A stretch of DNA of 38,694 nt, from the IMG/VR virus record IMGVR_UViG_3300008625_000027, positions 1 to 38,694 of that record; one strand, written 5' to 3'. Of the stretch, positions 148 through 19,998 are shown in pieces (within the stretch, counting starts at the first letter, position 1; each line of letters opens with the position of its first letter). The translations under genes and the position numbers were made by a program. A model generated the notes under the pieces. The model did not search any database. It was not told where the DNA came from and saw only the letters and a program-made list of their open reading frames with translations. This DNA comes from a virus.

Positions 148-230
148 TGCGAGGAGGGGGACTCGAACCCCCAAGCCCCGAAGGGCACCGAATCCTCATT
201 CCGGCGCGTATTCCGTTCCGCCACTCACGC
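148..230 (-). tRNA. tRNA-Leu (anticodon GAG), with imperfect acceptor stem
   Basis: The minus strand folds as a class II tRNA: D stem GCG/CGC with a GG-containing loop, anticodon stem CCGGA/UUCGG closing loop AUGAGGA (anticodon GAG, Leu), variable arm GCCC-UUCG-GGGC, T arm GGGGG-UUCGAGU-CCCCC, discriminator A at 148. CCA is not encoded. The acceptor 5' strand GCGUGAG pairs poorly with the 3' strand UCCUCGC: positions 4 and 6 mismatch and position 7 is G-U. A second copy of the 5' half just upstream (minus strand from 269) starts with GCGAGGA, which pairs perfectly with the same 3' strand. The gene therefore looks rearranged at its 5' end. It may be functional, slow to mature, or a pseudogene. 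Confidence 0.75.
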
Positions 231-2792: not shown

Positions 2793-2803
2793 CACGGGGT
2801 TGA

Positions 2804-3697
2804 TTACCTGTTCTTGGGTCCGGAACTCTTCTTGAATCTGATTCTCCCCCCAACGGATATCTTCCGCTCCCTCACCTTTGGCGTCGGTGTCGGGGCCCAG
2901 GGGTCCTCGGAGGGAGAGGGCTTGCCACCCCCTACCATGATCCCCTGGGAGGGCTCAGAAGTGTTCTTTAGCCCCTGTCCCGGAGCCCATACGGGAGCCG
3001 CTGAGGCCGGTGGGGGGAGCCTTGGAGGCTCGACCTTCTTGGGAGCCTCCGGAACGGGGAGTCGACGTACCCTCTTCTGTATGTGTTGTATGTGCTTGCA
3101 CGGATCTTCTCTCGAAGGACAGGTGCATCTCCATACATCCCCAGGGAACTGAGAAACCTCGTAGAAGGTTCCCTTCTTGGACCCTTGGACACGCCAGAGG
3201 CCCTCTGGCTCGGGAGGGGGTGGAAGTTGCTGGAGCTCCTGCATCCTCTCGAACTTGGAGACCTTGACTTCATCTACGAGGCGCTCTGGGGGCTTGACAT
3301 CATCAGGCTCGGGGGTGCTACGAAATCCTGAAGGGGTCAGTCCAATCAAGGACGCAGCCTCCGTCCCAACTTCCTCTGGGGTGGGGATAGACCAGTCCCC
3401 CTTCCTCTCCGCGACCTCAATAGCCAGGGCCTTCTGTACGATGTCTTGGAACTGGGCCTGTACCACGTTCCGATACGCTGGATCCTGGGGGTTCCCGAAG
3501 TTGGGGTTGTGGAGCAGACGATCTGCTTGGGTAGACATCCGCTTGTCCCAGAGAGTCAGACCCCTATCCTCTCCACGGGCGTTCCTGCATCCGAAGTTGA
3601 TACACTTCCGACAGTATTCGTTCCGGAAGGCTTCAGGAGAGAGCAGGCTGCGAGCCTTCCCATCATAGCAGTTGTCCCATAGATCAGGAAGTGACAT
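2804..3697 (-). CDS. SWIM zinc-finger-like protein, 297 aa
   Basis: Residues 191-202 read CTCPSREDPCKH, a CxC-x6-CxH pattern that matches the SWIM zinc-binding signature, preceded by the usual beta segment (FYEVSQFPGDVWRC). SWIM domains in other proteins bind DNA or protein. A second Cys cluster near the N terminus (C29-x2-C32-x4-C37) could hold another metal. The region 155-165 and residues about 210-275 are proline-rich and probably disordered, and the C terminus is basic (VRERKISVGGRIRFKKSSG). The start ATG has only a weak ribosome binding site, nine bases downstream of the preceding stop. What it acts on is unknown; a nucleic-acid or protein-binding accessory role is inference. Confidence 0.75.
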   Translation of the reverse strand: MSLPDLWDNCYDGKARSLLSPEAFRNEYCRKCINFGCRNARGEDRGLTLWDKRMSTQADRLLHNPNFGNPQDPAYRNVVQAQFQDIVQKALAIEVAERKGDWSIPTPEEVGTEAASLIGLTPSGFRSTPEPDDVKPPERLVDEVKVSKFERMQELQQLPPPPEPEGLWRVQGSKKGTFYEVSQFPGDVWRCTCPSREDPCKHIQHIQKRVRRLPVPEAPKKVEPPRLPPPASAAPVWAPGQGLKNTSEPSQGIMVGGGKPSPSEDPWAPTPTPKVRERKISVGGRIRFKKSSGPKNR

Positions 3698-3706
3698 GAG
3701 ACTACT

Positions 3707-4162
3707 CTACCGATAGTTGAAGCCAGGGCCCTCCACCACCACAGTGTGGCGCCCCTCAGACCAAGCCAGGGCTACGCGGCGGAATAGGTGGGCAACCTCG
3801 GGGTCCGGGCTCTCCAGAGGGGCATCGTAGCAAGTCGGCGGGCCGGGGGATCCCTTGTGCTGGCCGCCAGGTCGACAGAGCTTGGGGTTCCAGGACATAC
3901 AGGTAGAGCGAACCCCGCACAACCCTTCCTCCTCAGACACCCTTCTCCCAGAGGCGCGGGGGTCTCTCCCCAACTCTCGGAGGAGAGGTATGAGATGTCC
4001 ATGGAGGGCATGGGAATAGGACGCTCCGGAGACCACACATACCCCGCCTTCCCAGCTGGTTCCTCGGAAGACCTCGAAGTCTCCCCAGTCCTCGGCGGAT
4101 CCAGGGGTCGCCAGCAATAGGATCTCTTCGGTGTGGTCCTTGAGGGAGAGTTCCCGGATCAC
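3707..4162 (-). CDS. Hypothetical Cys-rich protein, about 151 aa, GTG start
   Basis: The best start is GTG at 4162, which overlaps the TGA of the upstream gene as GTGA, a translational-coupling arrangement. An earlier ATG in the same frame would run deep into the neighbour. The N-terminal 70 residues look like a small alpha/beta fold (EEILLLATPG, GGVCVVSGASYSHALHGH). The second half has several cysteines (LCGVRSTC, LCRPGG, PTCYD) and many prolines, and the C terminus ends in HTVVVEGPGFNYR. Function unknown. Confidence 0.65.
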   Translation of the reverse strand: MIRELSLKDHTEEILLLATPGSAEDWGDFEVFRGTSWEGGVCVVSGASYSHALHGHLIPLLRELGRDPRASGRRVSEEEGLCGVRSTCMSWNPKLCRPGGQHKGSPGPPTCYDAPLESPDPEVAHLFRRVALAWSEGRHTVVVEGPGFNYR

Positions 4163-4368
4163 AAGATCCGCTTGATCTTGGGACGACCCATATCCGGATC
4201 GAATCCGATGTTGGAGCAACCCCCTACATGGGCTCTCTGAGCCTGCTCAGGACCGATGATCTTGGCAAGGCCCTGGCGCGCCAGGTCCACGTAGTTGAAG
4301 TCGTCAGTCCATACCTCGAAGCCGTAGGTATCGCTCTCGGTTTCCAGCTGGACATGATAGCAAGGCAT
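4159..4368 (-). CDS. Small hypothetical protein, 69 aa
   Basis: The frame is open to 4491, but the upstream part is a shadow of the preceding gene. ATG at 4368 (MPCYHVQLETESDTYGFEVW) lies 19 bases after that gene's stop. The protein begins like a beta-hairpin (YHVQLETESDTYGFEVWTDD), continues with a helix (YVDLARQGLAKII), and ends in a basic tail (GRPKIKRIL). Its TGA overlaps the GTG start of the next gene. No family recognised. Confidence 0.65.
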   Translation of the reverse strand: MPCYHVQLETESDTYGFEVWTDDFNYVDLARQGLAKIIGPEQAQRAHVGGCSNIGFDPDMGRPKIKRIL

Positions 4369-4387
4369 AGTTGGTGTTACCCCGACA

Positions 4388-5084: not shown

Positions 5085-5933
5085 TCAGAGAGCGGTGTTC
5101 TCCTCCTCGTCTTCGTCTACCATCAACGAGTCGTAACCGGCCAACACGCTGGTGTTCAAGGAGCCGGACTGTCCTGCGTCAGCTGTATCGTCAACCGGGA
5201 TGGACGTGGGGTCATCAGAATCCGGAACACGGAACGTCGAGTCGAAGAAATACGCGATGCTGGCTGCCGTGAGACTCGGATTGTACTCGTCAGTTGAGAA
5301 GTTGGAGCCCAAGGAGAACCCAGTCGCTCCAATCATGTCCTGGACCTCCTGTTCCAGCTGTTCCCGTAGGTCCATCAACTTGATGATCCTTTCCTCGAGC
5401 CGGGTGCGCTTGGTCCGCATTGCTTGGGAGATCCAACGGCGACCCACCCCCACGTAAACGGAGATGTCCTTCTCCCGAATCGCGATCCCCTTGCCTCCCA
5501 TCCGGGAGGGCCTGTACTTTTGGAGACTTGCGTCCCCGTCCTGGACTCCCTGATCATAGCTGTATCTGATGTTCTTCTGGTATAGCTGACCCCCTCCAGG
5601 CATCGTTGGGATGTATTCCCCGTCAATCTCGATAGCCCTCTCTGGTGTCAGGAACAGGGAGATGTCGAGAGGATTCCCGCCCAAGCTTGTGTACGCCAGG
5701 AGGAGCTTGCCCAGGGAGGAGTCCGCAGGCTCTACGACGATCCCTTTCCGCTTCTCCGTGGTGTTCCCTGCCTCGTCCCTCTCGAAGAGGACCTGGATCT
5801 CTCCGATTCTCTGGAGTTCTGCGTCTATCACCTGGAAGCGTGCAGCCACGTCCCGGCGCTCCTCCAGCATGAACCTTCGGAACGCACGCCACTGTCCCTC
5901 ACGAAATCGGGAGGACCAGGAGAACACCGCCAT
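5085..5933 (-). CDS. Probable phage structural protein, 282 aa
   Basis: The start codon shares a base with the stop of the 840-aa gene (TGATG) and has GGAGGAT at good spacing, so the two are cotranslated. The N terminus is helical and basic (FREGQWRAFRRFMLEERRDV). The middle is beta-rich with FLTPERAIEIDGEYIPTM. Residues about 170-200 form a strong helix with heptad-like spacing (RTRLEERIIKLMDLREQLEQ), suggesting oligomerisation. The C terminus is very acidic and low-complexity (MVDEDEEENTAL). The position beside baseplate-type genes suggests a virion or assembly role; this is inference. Confidence 0.7.
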   Translation of the reverse strand: MAVFSWSSRFREGQWRAFRRFMLEERRDVAARFQVIDAELQRIGEIQVLFERDEAGNTTEKRKGIVVEPADSSLGKLLLAYTSLGGNPLDISLFLTPERAIEIDGEYIPTMPGGGQLYQKNIRYSYDQGVQDGDASLQKYRPSRMGGKGIAIREKDISVYVGVGRRWISQAMRTKRTRLEERIIKLMDLREQLEQEVQDMIGATGFSLGSNFSTDEYNPSLTAASIAYFFDSTFRVPDSDDPTSIPVDDTADAGQSGSLNTSVLAGYDSLMVDEDEEENTAL

Positions 5934-8455
5934 CAGTCCGATCCTCCGTCGAAGATCTTCTTGAGGAGATCAAGCAGTAGTGTTGGGAGACCTCCCGCTA
6001 CCAGGACCACTCCAGCGCCATACGCGGTGGCGCTATCCTCTGGTTTCTCCTCTGCGGCAACCAGAGCCTGGACGATTCCTGCGGTCCCCGACTCGGCCAG
6101 CACCAATCCAGACGCAGGGCCGAAGCGGAGCAGCTCAAGGGAGTTCAGGAGAGCGCGGATCTTCACCAACAGGGCCTGCAACTGGTAGATCCGCGCCTGG
6201 ATAGCCTCGATGTAGGCAACGATTTTATCTGTGATCCCCTCCAGGCCATCCAGGACTGCCTGGAGGAAACGGTCCAGCCTCTCAAGGAGATCATCAAGAG
6301 GAGTGAGGGCTTGGGGAAGAAGGCGTATCGTCACCCACTGGGTATCCGCTACGGGACGGGAAACCCAGGCCCCCGCCAGCTGCAGGACTGCAACAGCAGC
6401 GTCCAGCAAGGAACCCCCATCGTACTGCGAGACAGCGTTCCGGATGAACTGAACCTCTCCCGTCGAGTCATTGAACAAAACAGGAGAGTCGTCGGCAGAC
6501 CCCCCTCCTGAGACCCATACCACCGTCCCCGTGGTGTCCAAGACCTCTACCTTGGGGGACTCGGAGAAAGCAGGGGCTCGAGGGGGTCCCTGTCCCTCCT
6601 GGTACTGGCCACGCAGGTTCCGCTTGTTGATGGTCCGACAGAAAGGGTTCCCACCTACCCCGCTGTCCTCAGAGGAAGAGGTGGCTCCAAGGCCCAAGGA
6701 CTCAAGGATGGTCTGCTCGGGGAAATCGTCGTGGGCGTCCTTCCAGACGAATCCCAAGAGGTCCTTGGCCCCGGAAACAATGGCGTCAGCGACTCCCTCT
6801 GGAGGAAGAGCTCGGTTGAGCAGGTCGGAAGAGACCCGCAGAAGAACAGCCTTCAACTTGCGGCGGAATGCTCCTGGACGACGTCCCTTGAACCATCGAG
6901 GCTGGAATCCGTATCGAGCCAGGATGTCTCGAGCCGCGTTCTCCAGGCCCTTGAGCCCCTGGCCCGGGAGGTAGGTGCTCTCTCGGAATCCGGAGTCCGG
7001 AGCCTCGGATAGATCCGCGCGACACAGGACAGCAAGAGCTATGGCTGCCTGGACGGCCTGTGTGTACCTGACCTGGTTCTCGGAGGGGAACTCGGCGACT
7101 ACAGGCCCTGATGCCTGGGTCATACAGGTGTATCCCACTTCCGAGCTGAACTTGGATGCTTGCTCGGGGAGGAGGATGCCTCCGGACGCCTGGACGATTG
7201 AGTTGGCGGTGAAGTAGTAGGGGGCTGCTCCCGAAGGATACACGGGAGAGGGGTTCTGTAGGGTCCCGGATACCCCTGGGAGGAGCTCGTCTATGTAGTC
7301 CTTGGTGACCGCCCGGATCCGGATCCAGTAGGTCTGGGCCTCGAAGGGAGATCCATCCACCTCGGCGAAACCCTCGGATCCCGCGACAAATGTGGCATGG
7401 AGTGGGAGATCCGACTTCGAGATCGTAGCTGAGAACGTGGCGCCAGCCCCCAGCTTGGAGACGAACCCAGCCTTCGCGAAGAACGTCGTCGCCAGGAGCG
7501 GGGCTCCTTCATGGATCAGTGTGGCCGGCTGGATAAGGGGCGTGTTCGCGCCAGCTTGGAGGAACAGGAGAGGGGCTCGAGGATCCGGGAGAGCCAGGTC
7601 GGAGAAGTCCGGGACCGTCGTGTTGAGGTCAGTGATCCCCCCATACAACTTGAGAGGACCGTTGGTGAGGGGATCCACGGCGCCAGACAGGACCCGAGCC
7701 AGGTCCTCTACGTCACTGGAAGTCTCCGCCTTGGGTGTGGCGCTGATCACCTGTAGTCCATCAGGGATGGTGGAGACATGGATCAGGAACCCTTTGGGGG
7801 CCGGAGAGAACCCTTTGCCTCCCAGGGGAGCCGGCATGGACCAGGACACAGTGAGTGCTGTGGGAGTCACCGACAGTGACCCTATCTGACGGAACGCTGC
7901 GACTCCTGCTCCGTCTGTCCCGTACTTGATGGTCGGTGTGTTCGGTGTTCCATAGGGCATGGAAGAGGATAGGAGGTCCTCTCTCCGGAAGAACTTGACG
8001 ATGGCCCTGATGAGTCGGATGACCGTATCCAGGTCTCCAGAGGACACATACAGGAACAGGGCCACCACTGTAGAGGAGGAGGTGAAATCCGGCCGTCCGG
8101 GGTCCGTGTTGTCCAGCAACCGCCCAATCATCCGGCGCTCATACGCCTGGTAGCCTCCGACCAAGTAGATGTAGCGGTCCTCGGACTTGATCAGATCCCA
8201 GTCCCCCGACATGTACAGGCCAAGCTGCCGGAGGTCGTGGATGAGGTCCCGGATCTCCTGTATGATCTGCTCAACCAGGGAGCGGATGGGGTCCAGCAGG
8301 CCTACCAGGAACGCTTTCAGGACGTTGAGGATTTGCTGGGCGATGGAGAGGATGGTGATTAGGAAATCGAGGACCGCGGTGAGCGAATCGATAGGGGGCT
8401 GCACCTTCTCGAGGAGCGGCTCTGTCGAAACCTCTACGGACTTCCATTCAGCCAT
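5933..8455 (-). CDS. Large virion protein, probable baseplate/fibre component with fibronectin-III-like domain, 840 aa
   Basis: The protein begins and ends with long amphipathic helices. Residues 23-80 contain LTAVLDFLITILSIAQQILN and later EQIIQEIRDLIHDL; residues about 730-785 contain LLERLDRFLQAVLDGLEGIT and further helices. Near residue 200 TPTALTVSWSMPAP followed by GFLIHVSTIP resembles the first strands of a fibronectin type III domain, a fold common in phage tail proteins. The centre is beta-rich and Gly/Pro-rich. The gene overlaps its upstream neighbour by 8 bases and its downstream neighbour by 1. It lies two genes from the giant structural gene, on the same strand. The exact role is not identifiable. 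Confidence 0.72.
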   Translation of the reverse strand: MAEWKSVEVSTEPLLEKVQPPIDSLTAVLDFLITILSIAQQILNVLKAFLVGLLDPIRSLVEQIIQEIRDLIHDLRQLGLYMSGDWDLIKSEDRYIYLVGGYQAYERRMIGRLLDNTDPGRPDFTSSSTVVALFLYVSSGDLDTVIRLIRAIVKFFRREDLLSSSMPYGTPNTPTIKYGTDGAGVAAFRQIGSLSVTPTALTVSWSMPAPLGGKGFSPAPKGFLIHVSTIPDGLQVISATPKAETSSDVEDLARVLSGAVDPLTNGPLKLYGGITDLNTTVPDFSDLALPDPRAPLLFLQAGANTPLIQPATLIHEGAPLLATTFFAKAGFVSKLGAGATFSATISKSDLPLHATFVAGSEGFAEVDGSPFEAQTYWIRIRAVTKDYIDELLPGVSGTLQNPSPVYPSGAAPYYFTANSIVQASGGILLPEQASKFSSEVGYTCMTQASGPVVAEFPSENQVRYTQAVQAAIALAVLCRADLSEAPDSGFRESTYLPGQGLKGLENAARDILARYGFQPRWFKGRRPGAFRRKLKAVLLRVSSDLLNRALPPEGVADAIVSGAKDLLGFVWKDAHDDFPEQTILESLGLGATSSSEDSGVGGNPFCRTINKRNLRGQYQEGQGPPRAPAFSESPKVEVLDTTGTVVWVSGGGSADDSPVLFNDSTGEVQFIRNAVSQYDGGSLLDAAVAVLQLAGAWVSRPVADTQWVTIRLLPQALTPLDDLLERLDRFLQAVLDGLEGITDKIVAYIEAIQARIYQLQALLVKIRALLNSLELLRFGPASGLVLAESGTAGIVQALVAAEEKPEDSATAYGAGVVLVAGGLPTLLLDLLKKIFDGGSD

Positions 8456-8684
8456 TCTTGGCCGCCTTTCCCCCGCCTGCCTTCAGCTTCTGTAGGGCTG
8501 AGTGTAGCTCTGACACCTGCTTCTGGTCCTGCTCGATCTGCTTCTCAACCAACCCTTCCAGGGAGGTAAGGAGAGCTCGTTGTCTCCCCAAGAGGAGACC
8601 CTCAACCAACCCATCGGTGCTGGGAGACCACCCCTCGGGGATCCCCGCCTCTCGGAGCCTTCTCCGGGCTTCCTCTGGAGTCAT
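8448..8684 (-). CDS. Small coiled-coil protein, 78 aa
   Basis: ATG at 8684 is preceded by GGGAGA. The product begins with a short helical repeat (TPEEARRRLREAGIPEGWSP), continues with a helix (GLVEGLLLGRQRALLTSLEG), and then a Gln/Glu-rich coiled-coil segment (EKQIEQDQKQVSELHSALQK). It ends in a basic Gly/Lys/Ala tail. The 3' end overlaps the start of the 840-aa virion protein gene by 8 bases, so it may be an assembly partner of that protein. It is the first gene of this minus-strand run, divergent from the SET-domain gene. Confidence 0.75.
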   Translation of the reverse strand: MTPEEARRRLREAGIPEGWSPSTDGLVEGLLLGRQRALLTSLEGLVEKQIEQDQKQVSELHSALQKLKAGGGKAAKNG

Positions 8685-8717
8685 GTGTTCTCCCGTAGGG
8701 TGTTGGGGATATAGTCA
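8685..8717. promoter_or_regulatory. Short divergent intergenic region
   Basis: These 33 bases separate the minus-strand small coiled-coil gene from the plus-strand SET-domain gene. They hold ribosome binding sites for both: GGGAGA on the minus strand and GGGGAT before the plus-strand GTG. A TATAT is present, but I see no convincing -35/-10 pair, so any promoter would have to reach into the flanking genes. Confidence 0.4.
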
Positions 8718-9125
8718 GTGTACTCCCGAACACCCGGAGGGAACGTGCTGCCCGAGAACAGTCTCTTCAGAGTCGTGTCCCGTCGGGGACACCTATGCCT
8801 GGTTGCCAAGGTGTCCTTCTCTCCCGGGGAGGTGGTTCGCCTCCTGGATGGGGATGTGTACCTCCATCCTACCAGAGAGTCCATTCGCACTGCTCCGGAT
8901 GTCCACATAGATGACGAGTTTGGGAGATACACGAATCACTCTGTGAACCCCACCTGCAAGGTAGAAGGGGGGTGTCTGGTGGCTCTCGTTCAGATCAACC
9001 CTGGAGGTGAGATCACCTTCAACTATATCGAGAACGAGGAGAAGATCCTGGCCTCTCCTTTCGTAGATCTGGAGACCGGAGAGCCCGTCGGGTTCCCCGT
9101 CTCTACGAGTCCAGACCCTTCTTGA
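8718..9125 (+). CDS. SET-domain protein (putative protein lysine methyltransferase), 135 aa
   Basis: Residues 70-76 read RYTNHSV and residues 96-103 read GGEITFNY. These correspond to the two SET signatures, NHS and GEEITFDY, that form the S-adenosylmethionine pocket and supply the catalytic Tyr. The segment from 18 (FRVVSRRGHLCLVAKVSFSP) fits the N-terminal SET strand region, and ASPFVDLETGEPVGF after the Tyr matches small bacterial SET proteins I know. There is no Cys-rich post-SET motif and no extra domain, so this is a minimal SET unit. Start is GTG at 8718 with GGGGAT upstream. It is the only plus-strand gene in the first 33 kb and its 3' end overlaps the giant gene tail-to-tail by 23 bases. 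The substrate is unknown; a host or virion protein are both possible. Confidence 0.82.
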   Translation: MYSRTPGGNVLPENSLFRVVSRRGHLCLVAKVSFSPGEVVRLLDGDVYLHPTRESIRTAPDVHIDDEFGRYTNHSVNPTCKVEGGCLVALVQINPGGEITFNYIENEEKILASPFVDLETGEPVGFPVSTSPDPS

Positions 9126-12100
9126 GGGCTACGAGCTCTCTCTGGCGTTGGAGCTTGTCCGGAAGTTCGTCCTCGGCACGTCGCGCTTCCATGATAGAGC
9201 CGTCCACCCGATCAGCTCGGAAGCGGATCCATGCGTAGCGGAGGTCCCGGAACCGGTCATCGAGGTTGAGGACGTCTTCGATGAGGTCAGGGATCACAGG
9301 CCGCTGTCCGAATCCATCATCCGCGAAGTCTGTCCAACCCCCCTCATCCAAGCGGCCGTCCAAGAGCCAGAAGCGCCGGCCCAGGATAGAGAGGCAGTCG
9401 GACGTATTGGTGTAGGGTGTCTCGTCTACCAGACCTTCCAGGGATTCCACCACCAGATTCGACACCACCCCGGCTCCGTCTGTGGGGTCAGTTGGTGACC
9501 CGATGTTGTTGATGTGGTCCTCCGCCTGGAAGACATGGTAGTCCCCCCCACGCCCTTCCTCGTAGATCCCCTTGATTTCATCCAACCAGGATAGGGTCCT
9601 CTCCCACAGGAAGAACACCAGGTCCAACGCATCCTGGGAGAAGATCGAGTTGGGCCGGATGATCCGGTACGGGAACGGCTGGATGCTGGAGACCGCGTCG
9701 TTCCCGGTTCGGTTTCCAAACAAGCCTCCGACAGCAGGAGACGTCGGCCGGAGAGTGTTCTGCCCCTCCCTCCCGGATCCCAGGGTGCTGACGTGGATGG
9801 TGGGCAGAGCCACGTATTCAGCACCCGTGCCTCCAAGGATGACGTCATCCCCCCCGCCCTCATCGCTTCCTCCAAACCGGGAGGTTCCATCAACCTCGAG
9901 GTCGCCGCCACTGATTCCGGTGATCTTGTAGGCTCCTCGGTTATCATCAAGGGCTGCTGCGGCTCCGGAGACGTAGGCTGAGCGCCCCACAGTTCCGGTA
10001 TCCCCTACGGGGCGGACACCCTTCTCGGACGGGTCGTAGAGCTCCCCAGCCGGCTGTACAAGCACGTAGTCGCCCTCTACCACCCCTTCAGAGGTCCAGG
10101 AGGATACCAGGTTGTCCTGCATCGTGTTCCACGTAGATGCGGATCCTCCGTCGGTATCTCCTCCCGGATAGTCGACCACACGTCGAAGTACTTCAGAGTC
10201 CGTGACGCAATCCAGGAGCTGGGCGTTGGACTGCTCCTGGGGAACGATCGGCTGTTCCAGGTAGATCTCGAAAGTGGCCGCCGACACCAGACTGGCGGTT
10301 AGACCAGGCCGCCGGAGGATGAGGTCCCCAGCCCCCGACACTCCTTGGATCTCGGCAGAGTCTATCAAGGCTCCGTTCACATCCAGGATACGGAGGACGT
10401 CTCCCGCGTTGATGTTGACGCGTCCCTCGTTGAAGTCCCCAATCGTGGTTGCAGGACTCGTTCCCGCGGAGAAGGTTCGGGTCGCAGCCACGTAGGAGCC
10501 GAAGGTCCCCCGCCTGATCTCGTACAGATACTTGAGGAGACTCAGCGCATCAGAGATCTCCGTCTGAATCTCATGGAAGCGGCGGATTCTCCGGACCTTG
10601 AAGTGAACGGCCTCCGAATAGGTCCCTGGGACGAAGTCTGAGTAGTTGCGATGTCCAACTTGAGCAGGGAACCCCGCCAAGCTATGGGAGTCAGATACTA
10701 CATGGGGCCGAGCGAGATTCAAATCAGTGGAGGGCCGGGCGAAAGTCGGCTCAAGGAACACGCCCCCAAGAGCAGTGAATCCAGGAGTGCCTCCTTCCTC
10801 GAGAGTGCTGCCGAGAATGAACCGGTCCCGAGGAAGGAGGCACTCGAGGACTTGACCGGGGAGCCCCGCCCCAGTGTCAAAATGTACGGCTGTCCAGTCA
10901 GCTGCCTGCATCCCCTCCAGGGAGACGTGGGTTGGGACGCCTTCGATCTTCTCAGCAATCGAGACTCCTGCGTAGCTCCGCGCATATCTCACTGAGGCGC
11001 GGTCCTCGAAGAAGACCGCCTCGCTGACAGGAGTCGGGACTCTGACACCCAAGGAGCTGGAGGAAGGAGTGCTCGTGTCTCCCAACAGGTACTGGATATC
11101 GGAAGCAGTGCTCGTCTTGTCCCAAGCCATGGTGGTGACGGTTGTTGTTCCGTGGACGCTGGGGTTTCGGTTTCCCATCACAGCCAAGGTGAACCCCGCT
11201 GTAGCATCGTTCCCGGAGCCATCTTCGGAGCTCCCCACCACGTTGTTCGAGGGAAGTCCATGCGAGGCTCGCGGGGTGAATGGGAAGTAGATCATCCCGG
11301 ACACCTGGACTCCAGACTCGTTCGCCGCGTCCCGGAACTCTGCGTCGGTGAGAGCCCCCCCGTTGGCGTCGGTCGCTGTTCCCGTAGACAGAGTGAATGT
11401 GGCCTCCCCCGTGGCGCTGTCGTAGGAGACAGCGGAGTAGGCCATCCGGTACACGGAATCGGACTGAAGGGTGTAGGATCCCGCATCGTAGATGGCGTAT
11501 CGGGAGTTCCTGATCAGGTACACGAACGTCGTGGCGCCGTCGCCGGTTGGGAATCCGCAATCCTCGGGGGAATGTGGAACTTCGGGGACCTCCTCAGCCA
11601 CGAGAGTCAAGCTGATGGCTGACTTCACCGAAGGGAAGCGGAGGTCCAATCCGTTCTTTTGTCCCGCGTCCGAATAGATCTCCTGCTCCCAGAGATTTCC
11701 TGTGTTGGTGTCCACGGCGTGCCGGACCAGGTATGTTCCTGTCGCGACCGCCCCGCCGCCCCCTGTAGTCTGATCGATCAGGAGGATATCTCCTGGAACC
11801 ACCTCGGAGAGACCCCCAGAGGTCGCCGAGACAGCGCTGATCCAATGACGAAGTCCATCCACTGTCAGAGCTCCGTCGGCGGCATCCCAGAGGGTTCCAT
11901 CCCCTTCCAGGATCACGGAGTCCTCATCCAGGTCTGAAGAGGGGATCACCGAGAATATCACCCCCTCCACGCTTCCGGTGGTGAACGGAGAGGTCGTGTT
12001 CCCATGGCCCTCCCAGGCCATGGCTCGGAGCTTCCCTTCCTCGGATCCCGCTGCTCCTGGGATAAAGGTTCCCACGTAGGGAACCCCTGAGAGAACAGTG

Positions 12101-15100
12101 CTGTCCTCGTCGGGCCCAACCCGCTCCAGGAACGTGAGAGCGGACCCTCCGTTCACCTCTGCGGAGGCGTTGACCGCAGTAGCTGTCCCTGCACCGATCG
12201 GAGACTCATGTGCCTCCAGAGAAACTCCAAGTTCCGTAGCGTCTCCGTTGGCAGGATTGGAGTTCCGAGGGAGGGTTGTCGCGAAGGAGACCTGCTCACC
12301 GAACGTGAGGCGATTCGCCTTGATCTCGCAGGTGGTTGACCCCCCTGCCGAACCCACCGGGATGTTGTTCCCGGAAGAGACACGGGTTGTGTTGGTGATG
12401 TAGGTGTCGATCGTGACGGTGAAGTCATGATAGTTGCCACCGGTGACTCCCGAGAGCGCAGAGAGCAATGAGGCAGAGGTCTCTACCGAGATGATCCCCG
12501 CAGCTGTCAACGAGACCCCTGTCCCTGCCAACGTGAGAGTAGTCACGGTCGCGAAGGGGTCGTTCACGTAGATGGAGCCTGCAGCTGCCAGGGTCGGGAT
12601 GACAACCTCACCTATGAGGGACTGTCCGGAGGCAGTCGCAGGGTCTGGGTTGTAGAGGCGGATGACAATGGCGTTTCCGCCTGCGACCAGGGCAAGCAAC
12701 CCTCCTGCGAGACCTCCTCCATTGGAGTCGAACACCAGCCCACCCACCGATGAGCAGTCGAGGAGGGTGATCCAGTTCCCAGGGTTCGTCTCGGAGGGGG
12801 TGAGGCCAGAGGTCGCAGGGAACGCGCCCCCCAGGTATCCAAACGCATTCTCCACTGTGTACTTGTGGGTGTCCGTCTTGGTAGTCGGGGTCACGAACCG
12901 TGGGGTCTCCACCTTCCCGGAGGATACGGCGCCAACGGAGAGGATCCCTGTCATTCCCGTCAGGAGCTCTCCGGCAGCTTCCTGGGGCTGATCCGCCTCC
13001 ACCAGGATGAGGTCGTAGGCTCGGCCGTCACCGATTGCCGTTCCGTCTGTGTAGGAGCCTGCTGTGGCGACAGGGGTCAGGTCCTGACCTGTATAGAGAG
13101 TTGCGGGATCTCGGTCGGGACCCAGTGTGTAGGTCTCTACCAGAACGCCATCGACAGCTACGATCTCATCCGGATATACAGCCTTCCAAGTCTGGTCTCC
13201 ATAGGGCATTGCCACGGACGTGTCCGCACCGAGGAGGATTCGGAACTTGGCCGCTACGTCCCCGAGGATAGCGAGCTCTGTCTCGGTTCCCTGGAGGTAG
13301 GGGATCTGGATATCCCCTGAGTCGTCAGCGGACTCCCCCTTGAGGCAGGGGAGCTTGACGGGCCTTCGATCAGTGTTGTTGAACTCTACCAAACCTTCGA
13401 TGCAGCTGAGGGGCTGAGGGGGCTTCTGCCCAAGCATGTCCTGGAGCGGGAGTGGGAAGATGTCCTCCCGACCCGGGAGGGAAGCGTCGATGAACTCCCC
13501 TGAGCCCCGAGCCACCTTGAGATCGAACTGGACTCGGTAGTCCGGAATCATGCGGGAGAGCTCCCGCATCTGCTTTGGCGTGATCTCGTCTTCGTCCTCT
13601 GGGATATCCTCGATATCCAGGAGGTCCTCCCCGCCGAAGATAGTATCCCCGCGCCCGGTGTTCTCGGAGACCACATCCTCGAGAGGGTCTGTGCCGTCCA
13701 CCAGGACTTCCGATCCGGAGAGGTCGGAGCCGTCCACACCAACGAGGGTCAGGATACAGCCTACCTGGACTTCCCCGACGAAGATCCCGTTGCCGTTTGG
13801 ATCGCTGAGCTCAAACACCGACCCGTCGGGCTTCCCGAATCGTAGCCGTTGGCCGGTCTCGAATCCCGGGGTGGAGAGATCGATATCCCCTGTGAACAGG
13901 GAGAACAGGGAAGCCCCTGCCGGGAGCGGGTTGAACATGAGCTGGGTTGCGTCAGGCCATCCCGTGTCTGGATCTACAGGGAACTCAGAGAGAAGCAGCG
14001 GCGTTGCTACCAGGGTTGCCTTCCCGACGGTGGAGACTGTTATCCCTGTAGCTGATGTGAGAGCGGAATCCATCTCCGCATCTCCCTCTGGGAAGAACCT
14101 CCAGATCCGAGCCCGAGGGTGTCTATCGGTGGCGAGGACCTCGATGATCCCCGTGATGTTCCCAAGAGCTTCATTGGAGATGTTCCCAATGGCAGTGCCT
14201 CGAGTTCGGACAACGGACTTGGTTGTCTCTCCAGGCTCCGGACCGGGGGTCTCAACCTTCCGGCCGGACGTGTAGTATCCGGGATCAGTGAAACCAGAGG
14301 CGCTCGGGACAGCATCGATCCCGGGAAGGAGCCGCGAGAAGTGCCGGGCTCTCTCGGGGAAGAGCCTCGAATAGACATGAGGCTCCCACATATCTCGGAA
14401 CAGCCCAGGGACGTTGAGTCCTGGGAAGATGAGCGCGAGCCCTCGAGGACGGCCCATTCCAATGAGGAGCCGGTCGTCCATATCGTTCTTGACACGACCT
14501 CTCTGACGGACCGTGAAAGAGGCCAGAGTCTCGGGGTCCGGGGTATCCCCGTCCGTCTCACCAGGACGCCCTACAGGGTCCTTCTCGGTTGCTGTAGTTG
14601 GGTCGTAGACCGGGTCCACTTCCTCGTAGAATCCGACACCACCGGACCACTCGTCCAGGACTTCCCTCCAGATGAGACGAACCGTCAGGTCTCCCGAGAT
14701 TTCGTCCTCGTAGCCGGGCCCTGCGTACCTCTTGTCATGTCCGATGAAGAACCGGAACTTCCCATCCCGGTCCCCGATCACACGCCCATCGAAAGACTCC
14801 AAGACCTGCTCGAAGGCCAGGACCACCCCGTTGTAGAGCTCGATGAAGGCACGGGCGGCACGGTCCAGGTCCTTCTTGTCTCGCACATCCCCACGGAGCC
14901 CAAGGAGCCCCTGTTCAGAGTTGTCCGGGAGACCGGCGAACGCGTCGGTGGGGCCTCCGCTGTCCGAGGCCACAGCCCCCAAAGCCTTCCCTGAGACCTC
15001 TCCCAGGAAATCCTCCATTGGAAGGACCTCGTAGAAGAAGCTGTCCGGATTCGAGAACGTGTACTGGGCAGTGAGGGTTGCTCCAAGGATCCGATTCTGG

Positions 15101-18100
15101 AGAGACGGAGTTGTGATGAAGAGGTACTGGGCCTTGAAGGCCGGAGCAAGGATGGCCGCCTCGTCTACCAGAGGACCCACCTCGGACACTGCCGTGTAGG
15201 TGGCGACCAGGGATTCCCCGGGCTGGAGAGCTCCCTGTGTGGGGAGGACGAACTCCACGGCGCCAGAGGAAGGATCCGCCTCGTAGTGGACGCCCTCCGT
15301 GAGCTCTTTCCCAGGGAGTTCAACCCCAGCCTCTGTCCGGCCGACCAGGAACAGGGAGAACTCCTCTGTATCTACGAATCCTGAAATCCCTGGGAACGTC
15401 CTTGGGAGAGGACCAAAGACGGGCCGGACCGAGAGACGAATGGTGTCTGTGGATGTATGTCCCGTGGCTATGGGGTTGGAGAGGTCTACTCGGGTGAATC
15501 TCCCATCATCGGACAGAGCAGAGCCTGCAACCAGGTAGGGATATCCAGCGATTTCCAGGAGATGACCTACACGGGCGTACTGGGTCAGGTCCCCGAGGAA
15601 CACAACTTGCAGCTGCCCTCTGTCCGCTTCTACCAGAGGAACCCCGGAGACAACTGGGAGGAATCCCTCTTGTCCACCCCCTGCTACGGGGTCGGAGGGG
15701 TCTACGGTGATGGCGATCCTCTGGGAAGAGAACGAGAACTCGGAGTCCCGAGCCGGAGCCCTGCTTCCAACCTCGGTGCTGGGCGGAGGCCACACAGTGA
15801 ACGTGGTTTCGTCTTCCCCGGCGTCGTACGAGACCGACTTCACGTAGAAAAGGGTCTGGTCCAGGACCATCAGGGCGCCGACCTGCACGTCCGGAGTGCG
15901 ATTCCCTCCCACGGTTGCTGTGTCCTGGCCCTCTTCCAGGAAGAACGGCTTCCTGTACACAGGGGGAGTGGACACCTGGTAGGCTTGTTCCCCACCGAAG
16001 GCTTCCAGGACCCCATAGGTGATCTTGACTGTCTCGGAGGGGTCAACAGCCTCGGCGAATGTGAGAGTACTCCCACTCACAGTGACCTGTACGAGACCAG
16101 CGAAGTTCTGGAGCTCCACACCTACCCAGATTGCCGCCTCGATCTCCTCCGATACAGTTCTCCCGGTTGGGTTGAACGTGTAGGTGAAGTCGTCTACGCG
16201 AGTGGCCTCCTCCAGCTGTACGATCAGAGGAAGGAACTCAGTGATCAACGTTCCGGTGAGGGGGTCTCCGTCCGTGTCCGCTTGGTAGTATGCGGCCTCT
16301 ACTATCTGTCCGTCCCGCAGGGGCTTGGTGATATAGATGTCTCCGGAGAGGGGAGACATCACCACATCCAATCCTCGCTCAGTGATCAGCTCCTCGAGGA
16401 AGTAGGCTGTCTCCCCTGTATGGGCTGTAGTATCAGCGTCAGAGAGGCGAATGCTCCCATCAGTGGGATCGATCTCACAGAACCCAGAGGCCAAGAGGCT
16501 CCCATCCAGGAACAGCTGATCGTAGTAGACCGTTTCCCCCGCGAAGTTCGTGAGCACATCAGAAGCGAATCGGATCTCTCCCGCGACCCCGCCGCCGGGC
16601 TCCCCTACTTCGATCTCCCCCGTCGCGATCGTCGGGGAGAACGACGAAACCAGCGTCATGTTGGTCCCGGCTGTGAACTCCTGAGACCCCACTCGGATCC
16701 TGAAATACGCGGTCGCCGGCGCTGTGGAGTTGAGGAAATGGGGATCGGTTACGTCGGGGACGGACAACCCGGTCTCTGCCAATGTCCCCAGGTCCGACCC
16801 CGTCTCGAGGAAAGAGACCGTAGCCGAAGGACTACTTGACGCAAGACCGAACCGCAGAGCCACAGGCCGGTTGCTCCCCAAGGCATCCGATACGACGGCG
16901 GATAGAGACCCCCCGACCGTTCCCGTGGGGGACAGGAGTCGAATCCTGAACGGCTCGTTCAGGAAGTGGTTGAACGGGACCCTCTGGGCGTCTGCGAGGA
17001 TCGTGGGGTCGAAGGTATCAGTGGTCTGGCCTTCCAGGATCCTCCACGAGAGTCCTGTCTCATCAGCAGGTGTAGGGGAGACAGTGAACTCAGCGATCCC
17101 CCCGACCAGGTTGGCGCCAGTGACTGTGTAGAGACCGGCCCCGGATCCGTTGATGACATGGAGTCTGTCACCCACCGAAACGGCGCTCAGGAGATTCCCC
17201 TGGAGGATCGCGTTCTGGGTTGACTCGGGGCTCAGGACAGGGTTCGAGAAGACCCCCGATGAGAAGGTTCCGCCACCCCCGGAGTAAACGGAACCTCCTT
17301 CGGGGGAGATCAGAACAGCTTGCCCGGGGGCTCCCTCTCCAGGGAGGAGAAACTCGGAACCCTGTCCCAGTTCTGAATAGCTGATGAGACCAGGCCGCTT
17401 GAGGTACAGACCGAAGCCTGCCCGAGTGGGATCCATGGCTTCGCTGTCTACTGTTTCCTCGATGACCCCCGTGTGGTCCAGCTGAAGCGTATCCGTTGGG
17501 GACAGGACAGTTGTGGCGGGGGTCTCTCCGAACTCGGCCCAGATGACCCGGTTGTTCTCCAGATCGTACTTGAGGCCAACCCTTTGACGGAGACCATAGT
17601 TGGACAGACGGACCAGGTTCAGCCCAAGGCTCATCTGGAAGTGTACGTCCTCATCGAAGCCGGGGATGTCCACCAAGGGAGGGTTGTTGACATGAACGAA
17701 CGGGCTGGCCTGGACGTTATCGGTGAACACCTTCCCAGTGTAGGAGCCTGTCGCTCGGATGTCTGCGGTCAGATTCTCCCGGCTCAGATTCTCAGGACTC
17801 CGGTACAGGCCGAGGCTTGATCCGTTGTCGGGCTGCCAACGGAAGGTGTCCCCTGAGGCATCCACCCTCCAGCCGGGAAGGAATCCCAGGACGGTGTGTC
17901 CGGAGAGGTCATCGGCGTCGGTGTTCCAGCCGATCTCCACACGCCCCGAAGAAGGAGTTCCGGCCTCGATGAAGACGCGACCTCGGATGACCCCTGCCTG
18001 GCCCGTCCCGGTGATGACCGTGTTGAGTTCCGTTGCGATCTGAGCTGCGGTGAACTCTCCGCTTCCAGAGGCCGTCCATGTGTAGGGGGTGCCGTCTACG

Positions 18101-19998
18101 GCGAAGCGAAGCTCCTCTGTCCCCACGAGAGTGTAGGGCTCCGAGTTCCGAGAATAGAGCCGCGCCTCGTCCGAGTACGTGGCTGGAGTGACCTGGGCCT
18201 GCGCGAAGTAGAGACCCTCTCCCTTGATGCCTCTTCGCTTCATCTGGACTCGGGAGGTCGCAGCGAACCCTGGCGGCTGGGAGGGTGCGGGCTCCAGAGA
18301 GGTCACTGCCTCGGTCTTCTTGACTCGAATCTTGAGGGTGGGGATATCCTCCTCGTACTCGACAACCTCGAGGGTCTCCAGAGCACGAGAGCCTGCAAAG
18401 ATGAAGGTATCTCCGACGCCCTCAAGCTGACGGACCAGTCCGCTGCCGTTGGGGCGAGCGTTCGCTGCGGTTGAGGAATCCGGGCTCTCTCCGGTCCTAT
18501 CAGGAACATAGAGGACTCCGGAGGCTCCTGGAGGGGGCATAGAGGCACTCCTCTGGATGAAGAGATCCCCAGACCCAGGAACACCAGAGCCTCCAGTATC
18601 CTCTCCGACCAGCTCATTCCCGTTCTCGTCCACCAGAGGAACAGGGCTCTGGAGCGGAACAGGCTGGGTGGAGAGGGAAACCCCATCGTAGAAAGCGTGA
18701 GCTCCCAGATATGCGATATCGTATTCGGTCTCTCCCGGCTGGGTCTTCTTGATGTCCGTCTCGGAGAACACCACCTTCCCAGTTGCACGAGACCACCAGA
18801 CCTCTCCTTCAGGGACGGAGGAGGGATCCCCAGGAAGGTCCGCGTCTGTATCGTAGGCCACAGGCGCCAGGTACCTGCGACTCCCAAGGCGAATGAAGGG
18901 TCGCTCGGTGGGTCCAGGGACTGGAGAGAGGACCGGATATCCCAGAGTTGAGTCCGTGGGAAGGCCGGCGAGCTCCCCGAGATCCCCATCGTCCCCAGGG
19001 CGGAAGCTCTCGGGGTTGTACCAGAGGGTGAGGCCTACGTTGGCGGTGGTGTATGTGGTGTTGAGGAGAAGGACCCCGTTGGTGACTCCGACCACAGCGT
19101 CGTATCCCGAGCCCACTGCAGGATAGTCCCCTTCGGTATCGGGGTCGGCGACGACCAGGATATCCAGGGGTATCGCGGTCGAGTCGGGGAACAGACCCCC
19201 ACGAACCAGGGAGAAGCTATCCGGAGAACCAGAGGCTCCGGGAAGGGTGTCTCCGACGGAGAAGCGGGACGGGGGTGGGGAGAGCTCATAAGAGTCCTTC
19301 GAACCCACCTCCCCGAGATCCTGGGGAGTGGTGCCTTGGAACGGAACCCACCTCCCCTTGCTGCCATCCCACCCGAATCGTGTCGCCTGGGAATCGTTGC
19401 GAGACCACCAGAAGGTAGGGCCTGAGAGCCTGTACGAGACGAGGAGGATTTGGTCCCCTCTGCCTACCGAGAACCCTCCCCCCATCGAAGAGAGAGTGGC
19501 GGCGTCAATGACCACCTTCCCGATGAGGGGATCCTGCCCCGGATCGAAAGCCGCGACCACCTGCCCCAAGGTGTCGCCCCGGAGGAGAGTCATCCCGGTC
19601 ACGGAGGACAGGTCCCGTCCGTTTTCATCCCTCACGTAGAAGGTAGCGGTCCCGTCTGTGTAGGTCCCGACGGTCAGGGATCCTTCGGCCGGTTGGACGT
19701 AGGTGGGATCTCCCGAGATTCTGAACGCATCCGAGTCCACTGTAGACAGGGATCCAGAGGTGGCTGCCCACACCAGGTATTCGTCCGTTCCGCCTCCTCT
19801 CAGGAGGACAGCTGCCCTGTACATGTCGGCATAGGGCTCTACGTCGCGGGGAGCCGGGATCTCGTACCCCGCTGCCAACATCTCCGCGGGAGAGAGATGA
19901 TCCCGGCTGACTCCTGAGGTCGCCTCCCCTGTGGAAGAAGCGTTCCCAGTCGCTACGCGCGCCGGGCGGAGCACGTACCCAGAGAGATTGAAGCCCAC
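9103..19998 (-). CDS. Giant virion structural protein, probable tail-tip/fibre or baseplate protein, 3631 aa
   Basis: One uninterrupted frame of 3631 codons. The GTG start at 19998 is preceded by AAGGGATC, 11 bases after the upstream stop. The composition is typical of beta-rich phage tail proteins: abundant Gly, Thr, Ser, Asp and Pro, few cysteines, no signal peptide. A module of the form GD-x-L-x-I ... GxYxV ... L-x-V recurs, for example near residues 945, 2735, 3200 and 3310, suggesting repeated small beta domains. Residues about 1715-1755 hold a conserved-looking segment (AFEQVLESFDGRVIGDRDGK), and about 1830-1900 another (RGLALIFPGLNVPGLFRDMW). The C-terminal 100 residues are charged and helical. 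It follows hub and spike genes, so an outer tail-tip or fibre role is likely but unproven. Confidence 0.8.
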   Translation of the reverse strand: MGFNLSGYVLRPARVATGNASSTGEATSGVSRDHLSPAEMLAAGYEIPAPRDVEPYADMYRAAVLLRGGGTDEYLVWAATSGSLSTVDSDAFRISGDPTYVQPAEGSLTVGTYTDGTATFYVRDENGRDLSSVTGMTLLRGDTLGQVVAAFDPGQDPLIGKVVIDAATLSSMGGGFSVGRGDQILLVSYRLSGPTFWWSRNDSQATRFGWDGSKGRWVPFQGTTPQDLGEVGSKDSYELSPPPSRFSVGDTLPGASGSPDSFSLVRGGLFPDSTAIPLDILVVADPDTEGDYPAVGSGYDAVVGVTNGVLLLNTTYTTANVGLTLWYNPESFRPGDDGDLGELAGLPTDSTLGYPVLSPVPGPTERPFIRLGSRRYLAPVAYDTDADLPGDPSSVPEGEVWWSRATGKVVFSETDIKKTQPGETEYDIAYLGAHAFYDGVSLSTQPVPLQSPVPLVDENGNELVGEDTGGSGVPGSGDLFIQRSASMPPPGASGVLYVPDRTGESPDSSTAANARPNGSGLVRQLEGVGDTFIFAGSRALETLEVVEYEEDIPTLKIRVKKTEAVTSLEPAPSQPPGFAATSRVQMKRRGIKGEGLYFAQAQVTPATYSDEARLYSRNSEPYTLVGTEELRFAVDGTPYTWTASGSGEFTAAQIATELNTVITGTGQAGVIRGRVFIEAGTPSSGRVEIGWNTDADDLSGHTVLGFLPGWRVDASGDTFRWQPDNGSSLGLYRSPENLSRENLTADIRATGSYTGKVFTDNVQASPFVHVNNPPLVDIPGFDEDVHFQMSLGLNLVRLSNYGLRQRVGLKYDLENNRVIWAEFGETPATTVLSPTDTLQLDHTGVIEETVDSEAMDPTRAGFGLYLKRPGLISYSELGQGSEFLLPGEGAPGQAVLISPEGGSVYSGGGGTFSSGVFSNPVLSPESTQNAILQGNLLSAVSVGDRLHVINGSGAGLYTVTGANLVGGIAEFTVSPTPADETGLSWRILEGQTTDTFDPTILADAQRVPFNHFLNEPFRIRLLSPTGTVGGSLSAVVSDALGSNRPVALRFGLASSSPSATVSFLETGSDLGTLAETGLSVPDVTDPHFLNSTAPATAYFRIRVGSQEFTAGTNMTLVSSFSPTIATGEIEVGEPGGGVAGEIRFASDVLTNFAGETVYYDQLFLDGSLLASGFCEIDPTDGSIRLSDADTTAHTGETAYFLEELITERGLDVVMSPLSGDIYITKPLRDGQIVEAAYYQADTDGDPLTGTLITEFLPLIVQLEEATRVDDFTYTFNPTGRTVSEEIEAAIWVGVELQNFAGLVQVTVSGSTLTFAEAVDPSETVKITYGVLEAFGGEQAYQVSTPPVYRKPFFLEEGQDTATVGGNRTPDVQVGALMVLDQTLFYVKSVSYDAGEDETTFTVWPPPSTEVGSRAPARDSEFSFSSQRIAITVDPSDPVAGGGQEGFLPVVSGVPLVEADRGQLQVVFLGDLTQYARVGHLLEIAGYPYLVAGSALSDDGRFTRVDLSNPIATGHTSTDTIRLSVRPVFGPLPRTFPGISGFVDTEEFSLFLVGRTEAGVELPGKELTEGVHYEADPSSGAVEFVLPTQGALQPGESLVATYTAVSEVGPLVDEAAILAPAFKAQYLFITTPSLQNRILGATLTAQYTFSNPDSFFYEVLPMEDFLGEVSGKALGAVASDSGGPTDAFAGLPDNSEQGLLGLRGDVRDKKDLDRAARAFIELYNGVVLAFEQVLESFDGRVIGDRDGKFRFFIGHDKRYAGPGYEDEISGDLTVRLIWREVLDEWSGGVGFYEEVDPVYDPTTATEKDPVGRPGETDGDTPDPETLASFTVRQRGRVKNDMDDRLLIGMGRPRGLALIFPGLNVPGLFRDMWEPHVYSRLFPERARHFSRLLPGIDAVPSASGFTDPGYYTSGRKVETPGPEPGETTKSVVRTRGTAIGNISNEALGNITGIIEVLATDRHPRARIWRFFPEGDAEMDSALTSATGITVSTVGKATLVATPLLLSEFPVDPDTGWPDATQLMFNPLPAGASLFSLFTGDIDLSTPGFETGQRLRFGKPDGSVFELSDPNGNGIFVGEVQVGCILTLVGVDGSDLSGSEVLVDGTDPLEDVVSENTGRGDTIFGGEDLLDIEDIPEDEDEITPKQMRELSRMIPDYRVQFDLKVARGSGEFIDASLPGREDIFPLPLQDMLGQKPPQPLSCIEGLVEFNNTDRRPVKLPCLKGESADDSGDIQIPYLQGTETELAILGDVAAKFRILLGADTSVAMPYGDQTWKAVYPDEIVAVDGVLVETYTLGPDRDPATLYTGQDLTPVATAGSYTDGTAIGDGRAYDLILVEADQPQEAAGELLTGMTGILSVGAVSSGKVETPRFVTPTTKTDTHKYTVENAFGYLGGAFPATSGLTPSETNPGNWITLLDCSSVGGLVFDSNGGGLAGGLLALVAGGNAIVIRLYNPDPATASGQSLIGEVVIPTLAAAGSIYVNDPFATVTTLTLAGTGVSLTAAGIISVETSASLLSALSGVTGGNYHDFTVTIDTYITNTTRVSSGNNIPVGSAGGSTTCEIKANRLTFGEQVSFATTLPRNSNPANGDATELGVSLEAHESPIGAGTATAVNASAEVNGGSALTFLERVGPDEDSTVLSGVPYVGTFIPGAAGSEEGKLRAMAWEGHGNTTSPFTTGSVEGVIFSVIPSSDLDEDSVILEGDGTLWDAADGALTVDGLRHWISAVSATSGGLSEVVPGDILLIDQTTGGGGAVATGTYLVRHAVDTNTGNLWEQEIYSDAGQKNGLDLRFPSVKSAISLTLVAEEVPEVPHSPEDCGFPTGDGATTFVYLIRNSRYAIYDAGSYTLQSDSVYRMAYSAVSYDSATGEATFTLSTGTATDANGGALTDAEFRDAANESGVQVSGMIYFPFTPRASHGLPSNNVVGSSEDGSGNDATAGFTLAVMGNRNPSVHGTTTVTTMAWDKTSTASDIQYLLGDTSTPSSSSLGVRVPTPVSEAVFFEDRASVRYARSYAGVSIAEKIEGVPTHVSLEGMQAADWTAVHFDTGAGLPGQVLECLLPRDRFILGSTLEEGGTPGFTALGGVFLEPTFARPSTDLNLARPHVVSDSHSLAGFPAQVGHRNYSDFVPGTYSEAVHFKVRRIRRFHEIQTEISDALSLLKYLYEIRRGTFGSYVAATRTFSAGTSPATTIGDFNEGRVNINAGDVLRILDVNGALIDSAEIQGVSGAGDLILRRPGLTASLVSAATFEIYLEQPIVPQEQSNAQLLDCVTDSEVLRRVVDYPGGDTDGGSASTWNTMQDNLVSSWTSEGVVEGDYVLVQPAGELYDPSEKGVRPVGDTGTVGRSAYVSGAAAALDDNRGAYKITGISGGDLEVDGTSRFGGSDEGGGDDVILGGTGAEYVALPTIHVSTLGSGREGQNTLRPTSPAVGGLFGNRTGNDAVSSIQPFPYRIIRPNSIFSQDALDLVFFLWERTLSWLDEIKGIYEEGRGGDYHVFQAEDHINNIGSPTDPTDGAGVVSNLVVESLEGLVDETPYTNTSDCLSILGRRFWLLDGRLDEGGWTDFADDGFGQRPVIPDLIEDVLNLDDRFRDLRYAWIRFRADRVDGSIMEARRAEDELPDKLQRQRELVALKKGLDS
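10785..10845. repeat. Perfect 17-bp inverted repeat inside the giant gene
   Basis: Bases 10785-10801 (gagtgcctccttcctcg) and 10829-10845 are exact reverse complements separated by 27 bases. The element lies within the reading frame (around residues 3051-3071 of the giant protein) without disturbing it. No T run follows, so it is not an obvious terminator. Confidence 0.85.

Follow-up and report, generated by a model that had tools for sequence, protein, structure and literature searches.

A plus-strand gene in a minus-strand block

We analysed a 38.7-kb linear record of an uncultivated bacterial virus (hereafter the window), in which one short gene runs against the direction of its neighbours. 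The open reading frame, at 8718-9125 on the plus strand, begins with GTG, encodes 135 amino acids and carries the NHS and GGEITFNY motifs pointed out by a sequence-only reading, which had called it a SET-domain methyltransferase. A Shine-Dalgarno-like GGAGGG can be read from the sequence at 8736-8741 (+), and the gene probably starts at the GTG behind it (8745-9125, +; 126 aa), since this start has GGAGGG upstream and yields a product that fits the lengths of its minimal relatives, mostly 113-139 aa. In the family alignment, the N-termini of many members start near residue 16 of the 135-aa frame.

Profile searches and codon statistics were used to assess the frame. The protein matches the Pfam SET family (PF00856) over residues 64-103 with 26.2 bits against a curated cut-off of 22.4 (E 1.1e-5). 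Built from 15 viral relatives and excluding the window, a family HMM matches the frame at E 4e-31, and among the 549 stop-to-stop frames searched no other one reached an E below 3.6; a second HMM, from 79 bacterial loci, matches the SET frame at E 4.5e-28. The protein had no match in PHROGs (E 0.01) or NCBIfam (E 1). A codon-statistics caller trained on the large minus-strand genes of the window ranked the SET frame best of six in 8690-9102 (+0.147, the next being -0.02). Its coding score was reached by 0.7% of 546 equal-length antisense windows, while 6% of 182 true-gene windows scored as low, both sets being drawn from the genes used for codon training. We rejected a minus-strand or chance ORF, as codon statistics and the family HMM both favour the plus-strand frame. 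The ORF is a genuine gene, and in three other contigs of the window's population it is open and without a single nucleotide difference.

Convergent with the SET gene lies a giant gene of 3631 aa (9103-19998, -), for which scans of PHROGs (E 0.01) and Pfam (E 0.05) gave no match; the two genes overlap at their 3' ends by 23 bp (9103-9125), as had been described. On the other side, a divergent 78-aa ORF (8448-8684, -) had no match in family scans, and an 840-aa protein (5933-8455, -) has a weak tape-measure match (phrog_4200, E 0.0071). Elsewhere in the block, a tail tube initiator match (E 0.0014) falls below the family cut-off, and a terminase match at 37.6 kb is weak (E 0.0025). The gene had been placed between two minus-strand structural genes; minus-strand neighbours do flank it on both sides, but the term structural comes from weak matches, and the 78-aa ORF has none. 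That it is the sole plus-strand gene in the first 33 kb holds by the codon caller over 1-33,848, which gave no clear call in the first 620 bases and in 2796-4387. A tRNA-Leu (anticodon gag) is present at the edge of the window (148-230, -).

The sequence-only reading also proposed a moron-type insertion with its own regulation. The first part agrees with a lone gene opposite its neighbours' strand; for the second, no sigma-70-like promoter was found for the SET gene, and the one terminator-like site upstream of it (8667-8682) compares with 0.5 expected. From its strand, separate regulation of the gene is plausible. Scans of viral contigs with the flanking proteins returned only the three contigs of the window's population. 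Among these population contigs the giant gene differs in patches, while the SET gene is identical. Two of the patches, at 9196-9223 and 9646-9741 near the giant gene's 3' end and close to the SET gene, are dense in differences that mostly fall at third positions, a pattern expected of recombination tracts.

The window's population also includes a 101-kb contig that encodes an SNF2-like helicase together with DNA polymerase A, a DnaB-like helicase and an NAD-dependent ligase, a gene set indicating a bacterial host. An archaeal virus acting on histones was rejected because of the bacterial-type replication genes in this longer contig, despite a Volactin match there. The latter involves a 333-aa protein encoded outside the window (L066:15714-16715, +; PF25216, E 4e-70); we take Volactin to be an actin homologue. 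The NAD-dependent DNA ligase may be split, with a family match at L065:10268-11398 and a second ORF, recognised by eye, at 11442-12245 (+). A relative of the window's 840-aa neighbour (5933-8455, -) was found at LR745208.1:241676-242572 (E 5e-23, with 29% identity across one third of the neighbour), and the window may belong with large phages because this relative sits in a 485-kb uncultured phage. Searched with the SET profile, the 485-kb phage gave only a weak partial match (E 0.014, 23 positions).

Fold and active-site residues

We predicted the structures of the window protein (pLDDT 85.3, pTM 0.76) and of a viral relative, L036, modelled from 23 sequences (pLDDT 93.5). Absence of a SET fold had been named as one observation that would count against the assignment; both models show the fold, and among the 50 structure matches listed for the window model the titles are SET enzymes or complexes holding one. 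The closest solved structure is BurB of Burkholderia thailandensis (PDB 9l4t, 9l4v), which aligned with the window model at Z 13.8 (rmsd 2.7, 123 residues aligned), ahead of EZH2 at Z 11.5, and with the L036 model at Z 15.1 (rmsd 2.3, 119 of 120 residues aligned), ahead of ASH1L at Z 11.0. Foldseek likewise placed BurB first for both models. By sequence profile, three histone methyltransferase chains, two of them named as specific for H3 lysine-36, score slightly above BurB (50.8-53.5 versus 47.6 bits). According to PMC12542666, BurB converts methionine and SAM to S-methylmethionine, and its Tyr124, His93 and gating loop are described there; changing Tyr124 to Ala (Y124A) abolished nearly all of its activity.

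Other viral SET proteins are also found by structure. The minimal SET protein vSET of a chlorovirus (PDB 3kma) matches the window model at Z 10.4, below BurB. Chloroviruses infect algal eukaryotes, which have histones, and vSET is a histone methyltransferase; because it too matches, compactness does not by itself speak against a protein substrate. The fold also occurs in BFVD entries from giant viruses and uncultured Caudovirales (Foldseek, best E 6.5e-5); these SET proteins carry only a domain name, and the lengths of the best matches lie between 100 and 971 residues.

To read the active site we compared the window protein with an alignment of 16 minimal viral members, with four BurB-like proteins, with four histone methyltransferases and with 79 bacterial relatives. 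The viral alignment leaves out eight contigs with other SET types and six near copies or broken frames, and its members were found with patterns built on G[EGD]E[IL][TS]F[DNH]Y and [RS]xxNHS[CV]xP, which do not touch Glu107, residue 43 or the SET-I spacing. The bacterial set, which numbers 79 after a locus with a broken frame (L090) was dropped, was found with patterns containing NHS or E[IV]TF[ND]Yxx[NTS]E, so that its counts for N, H, F, Y and E107 are not independent. Ten positions are invariant in the 16 minimal viral members (window numbering): S55, N73, H74, P78, E98, T100, F101, Y103, E107 and F115. N73 and H74 belong to the N73-H74-S75 motif (8934-8942, +). F101 and Y103 lie in GEITFNY (9006-9026, +), where Y103 is the active-site tyrosine, aligned with Tyr124 of BurB, and F101 occupies the Phe/Tyr switch position. 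The NH motif and the active-site tyrosine are thus kept in all 16 viral members. E107 (9036-9038, +) lies four residues after the tyrosine, and this Tyr-x3-Glu arrangement occurs in 16/16 viral and 4/4 BurB-like proteins and in none of the four histone enzymes; the bacterial relatives have Glu107 in 79/79 sequences, one search pattern having favoured it.

Two further marks set the viral members apart from histone enzymes. Spacing from G45 to H74, which spans SET-I, is 28-30 residues in 15 of the 16 viral members (37 in the other) and 30 in all four BurB-like proteins, against 47-48 in the four histone methyltransferases. The EYxG tyrosine, which we take to be an active-site residue of histone-type lysine methyltransferases, is present in 4/4 histone enzymes but in 0/16 viral and 0/4 BurB-like proteins, the window protein having Leu43. 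The four histone references are three Set2-type chains and one MLL1 chain, hence not four independent lines. Bacterial relatives are divided on the first mark, with spacings of 28-33 in 40 of the 79 and of 39-44, between the viral and histone types, in the other 39; two of the 79 have the EYxG tyrosine.

The remaining positions point the other way. Asn73 and Phe101 are kept in the 16 viral and the 79 bacterial members (the bacterial counts being pattern-biased), whereas the BurB-like proteins have L, A or T at the Asn73 site and M or I at the Phe101 site (4/4), BurB itself having L and M. The histone enzymes have Asn, as does the window protein, and at the switch site Phe in three cases and Tyr in one. 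The phage protein therefore shares with BurB the short SET-I spacing, the missing EYxG tyrosine, Tyr-x3-Glu and the active-site His and Tyr, while with the histone-lysine methyltransferases (Set2, MLL1, ASH1L, EZH2) it has the SET fold in common and, in the Set2-type and MLL1 chains, the N, H, F/Y and Y residues. Judged by two marks each, it would be neither a strict BurB (N73, F101) nor histone-type (SET-I insert, EYxG tyrosine).

Post-SET cysteines are absent from the window protein, in which VDLETGEP replaces the C-terminal cysteine site. This replacement, together with the low coding score, might be taken for the decay of an inactive insertion with no role. We consider that very improbable: the active-site residues are intact, the Shine-Dalgarno sequence is good, the frame is open and unchanged in the three other population contigs, and the C-termini of the relatives L038, L045 and L072 resemble that of the window protein. 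The earlier assignment to the SET domain is thus borne out by the Pfam score, the predicted fold and the intact catalytic motifs. By sequence and model, the ORF encodes an intact minimal SET-fold protein, a predicted SAM-dependent methyltransferase of a family found in prokaryotes and phages.

Relatives in phages and bacteria

Single-protein scans and a first alignment returned only the three viral contigs of the window's population. A scan of viral contigs with a core-motif alignment returned 32 loci, these three and 29 others; reading of the frames showed a minimal SET of the window type on 21 of the 29 (one with a broken start) and other types on eight. Three of these eight (L049, L055, L064) carry a distinct type with NHSVNPN behind an N-terminal part that by eye is cupin-like. 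A tblastn search of 50,697 phage records with the window protein, L017 or L038 as query yielded no relative, the window protein giving a single chance-level match (E 9) at E up to 10. With L058 as query there were two weak matches, to a 636-kb uncultured phage (E 6e-3) and a Rhizobium phage (E 0.3); at the former site a 135-aa SET-like protein of another type was recognised by eye.

We compared 30 neighbours around 11 viral populations with PHROGs, choosing larger genes and not a random sample. Eighteen match families of replication, recombination or nucleotide metabolism, namely UvsX, exonuclease, DnaB, ribonucleotide reductase, DNA polymerase and its exonuclease subunit, SbcC, SbcD, thymidylate synthase, clamp loader, ligase and HNH endonuclease. 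The rest comprise one endolysin, three other named families, four families of unknown function and four proteins that had no match, and no head, tail or packaging family was found among the 30 at E 0.001. Eight of the 11 populations have replication or nucleotide-metabolism genes within 5 kb of the SET gene. In these relatives the SET gene is co-directional with the neighbours tested; the window differs in that its SET gene opposes the strand of a putative late block. Since 18 neighbours are of the replication type and none is of a virion family, we see nothing that ties the family to virions. Strand and the relatives' replication context together suggest that the SET gene is expressed apart from late genes.

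These observations bear on the original proposal, a lysine methyltransferase whose targets would be proteins of the virion or of the host nucleoid. As a target, the adjacent giant protein was rejected, no evidence for it having been found. In its broader form the proposal is that lysine is methylated in some protein of the host or the virus, be it from the nucleoid, ribosome, replisome or virion. The Pfam match and the histone-like N73, H74, F101 and Y103 agree with it, as do a family profile that matches histone enzymes down to 1.7e-13, the intermediate SET-I spacing of half of the bacterial relatives, and vSET as an example of how compact a small viral SET can be. Against it are the short SET-I spacing and missing EYxG tyrosine of the viral members, a metabolite enzyme as the best fold match by 2.3 to 4.1 Z units, the absence of virion families among the 30 neighbours tested, and a post-SET site that has no cysteines in the window protein. 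We regard protein lysine methylation as a real but doubtful possibility.

Scanning of genome contigs gave 122 stretches that encode relatives, from which 80 loci were taken. Bacterial kin occur in Bacteroidota, Planctomycetota, Verrucomicrobiota, Chlorobiota, Actinomycetota and others. In a tree of 101 rows and 127 columns (11 near copies of 112 left out), the window protein groups with the viral protein L045 and with L072, from an Akkermansiaceae bin, at an SH-aLRT of 93, within a region in which viruses and bacteria are mixed. BurB-like proteins form a branch of their own with a support of 98; 42 of the 98 inner branches of the tree are open.

This separation weakens a strict BurB-type reaction, in which methionine and SAM would give S-methylmethionine and SAH, either draining SAM against restriction-modification or feeding sulfonium synthesis. 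The idea has in its favour that BurB is the closest solved structure and carries out that reaction (PMC12542666), and the destruction of SAM by phage SAM lyases is known (PMC7877911). Set against it, beside the branch, are N73 and F101 in place of L/A/T and M/I, and the KM values that PMC12542666 gives for BurB (1.8 mM for SAM, 16.6 mM for Met), which would suit a SAM drain poorly. We consider the strict form improbable.

Natural-product-like neighbours are evident at 4 of 16 bacterial loci inspected. At two of these, L069:22-10644 (Nitrospirota bin) and L076:3715-12300 (Chromatiaceae symbiont), the SET domain lies inside an NRPS adenylation domain, between TSGSTG and YGPTE; at L071 it adjoins a complete NRPS module. 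At the fourth, L100:2040-6330 of Chlorobium ferrooxidans, two standalone SET genes flank an ABC exporter and an ATP-grasp/SET fusion that is D-Ala-D-Ala-ligase-like, possibly a peptide natural-product cluster. L074 adjoins a QueC-like protein, and the remaining 11 loci had no clear natural-product link; L068 lies near genes that by eye resemble those of ribosomal proteins L35 and L20. The SETs of the four NRPS or ATP-grasp loci have the NH motif, the Phe switch and Tyr-x3-Glu like the phage protein, and L069, L071 and L076 fall in its mixed tree region, with the Chlorobium rows near it (L100 itself being omitted as a near copy). They differ from the phage gene, which stands alone, in lying within or beside multidomain assembly enzymes. 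Their contexts suggest amino-acid or peptide-metabolite substrates. BurB-like plasmid proteins have metabolic neighbours as well: a polyketide synthase (L026), a diaminopimelate decarboxylase (L028), and an asparagine synthase-related protein with a SAM decarboxylase (L025).

Candidate substrates and possible role during infection

Because its nearest solved relative methylates methionine, the SET protein may be a metabolic enzyme, and the viral branch is best described as built like a small-substrate enzyme. The substrate need not be methionine, since N73 and F101 are histone-like and not BurB-like. We tentatively favour an amino-acid or small-molecule methyltransferase in the general sense, to which we give slightly less than an even chance.

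For such an enzyme the following course can be proposed. Viral SETs lack the SET-I insert that forms the peptide groove of histone methyltransferases. SAM would bind at the NH(S) motif, and a small amino-acid-like substrate would most likely be enclosed, like methionine in BurB, in a pocket that Y103 and the Y-x3-E loop shut, there taking the methyl group by proximity. Lying opposite its neighbours' strand, the gene would be made independently of that block, probably early, and the enzyme would change a host metabolite or the SAM pool. A more specific proposal appears to us unlikely: that phages carry an early metabolic gene for a SET amino-acid methyltransferase, which would consume SAM and so remodel or deplete the host methionine/SAM pool during replication, perhaps also blunting SAM-dependent defence. 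Under that proposal it would be the first case of a viral SET enzyme with a metabolite as its known substrate.

SET proteins of uncultured phages are already known in structure collections under that name. In open-licence PMC literature, none of the titles among the matches listed pointed to work on a phage SET enzyme or on a SET embedded in an NRPS, and a term search found no word beginning "phage" or "virus" in the text of a review of bacterial SET proteins (PMC3980110). Database records label bacterial SET proteins "protein-lysine N-methyltransferase". Our comparisons suggest that the minimal phage SET and some of its bacterial relatives stand closer to an enzyme of amino-acid chemistry. 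If so, this label, which is in use in several bacterial phyla, would be misleading for the minimal SET group, and phages would have a new means of influencing the SAM economy.
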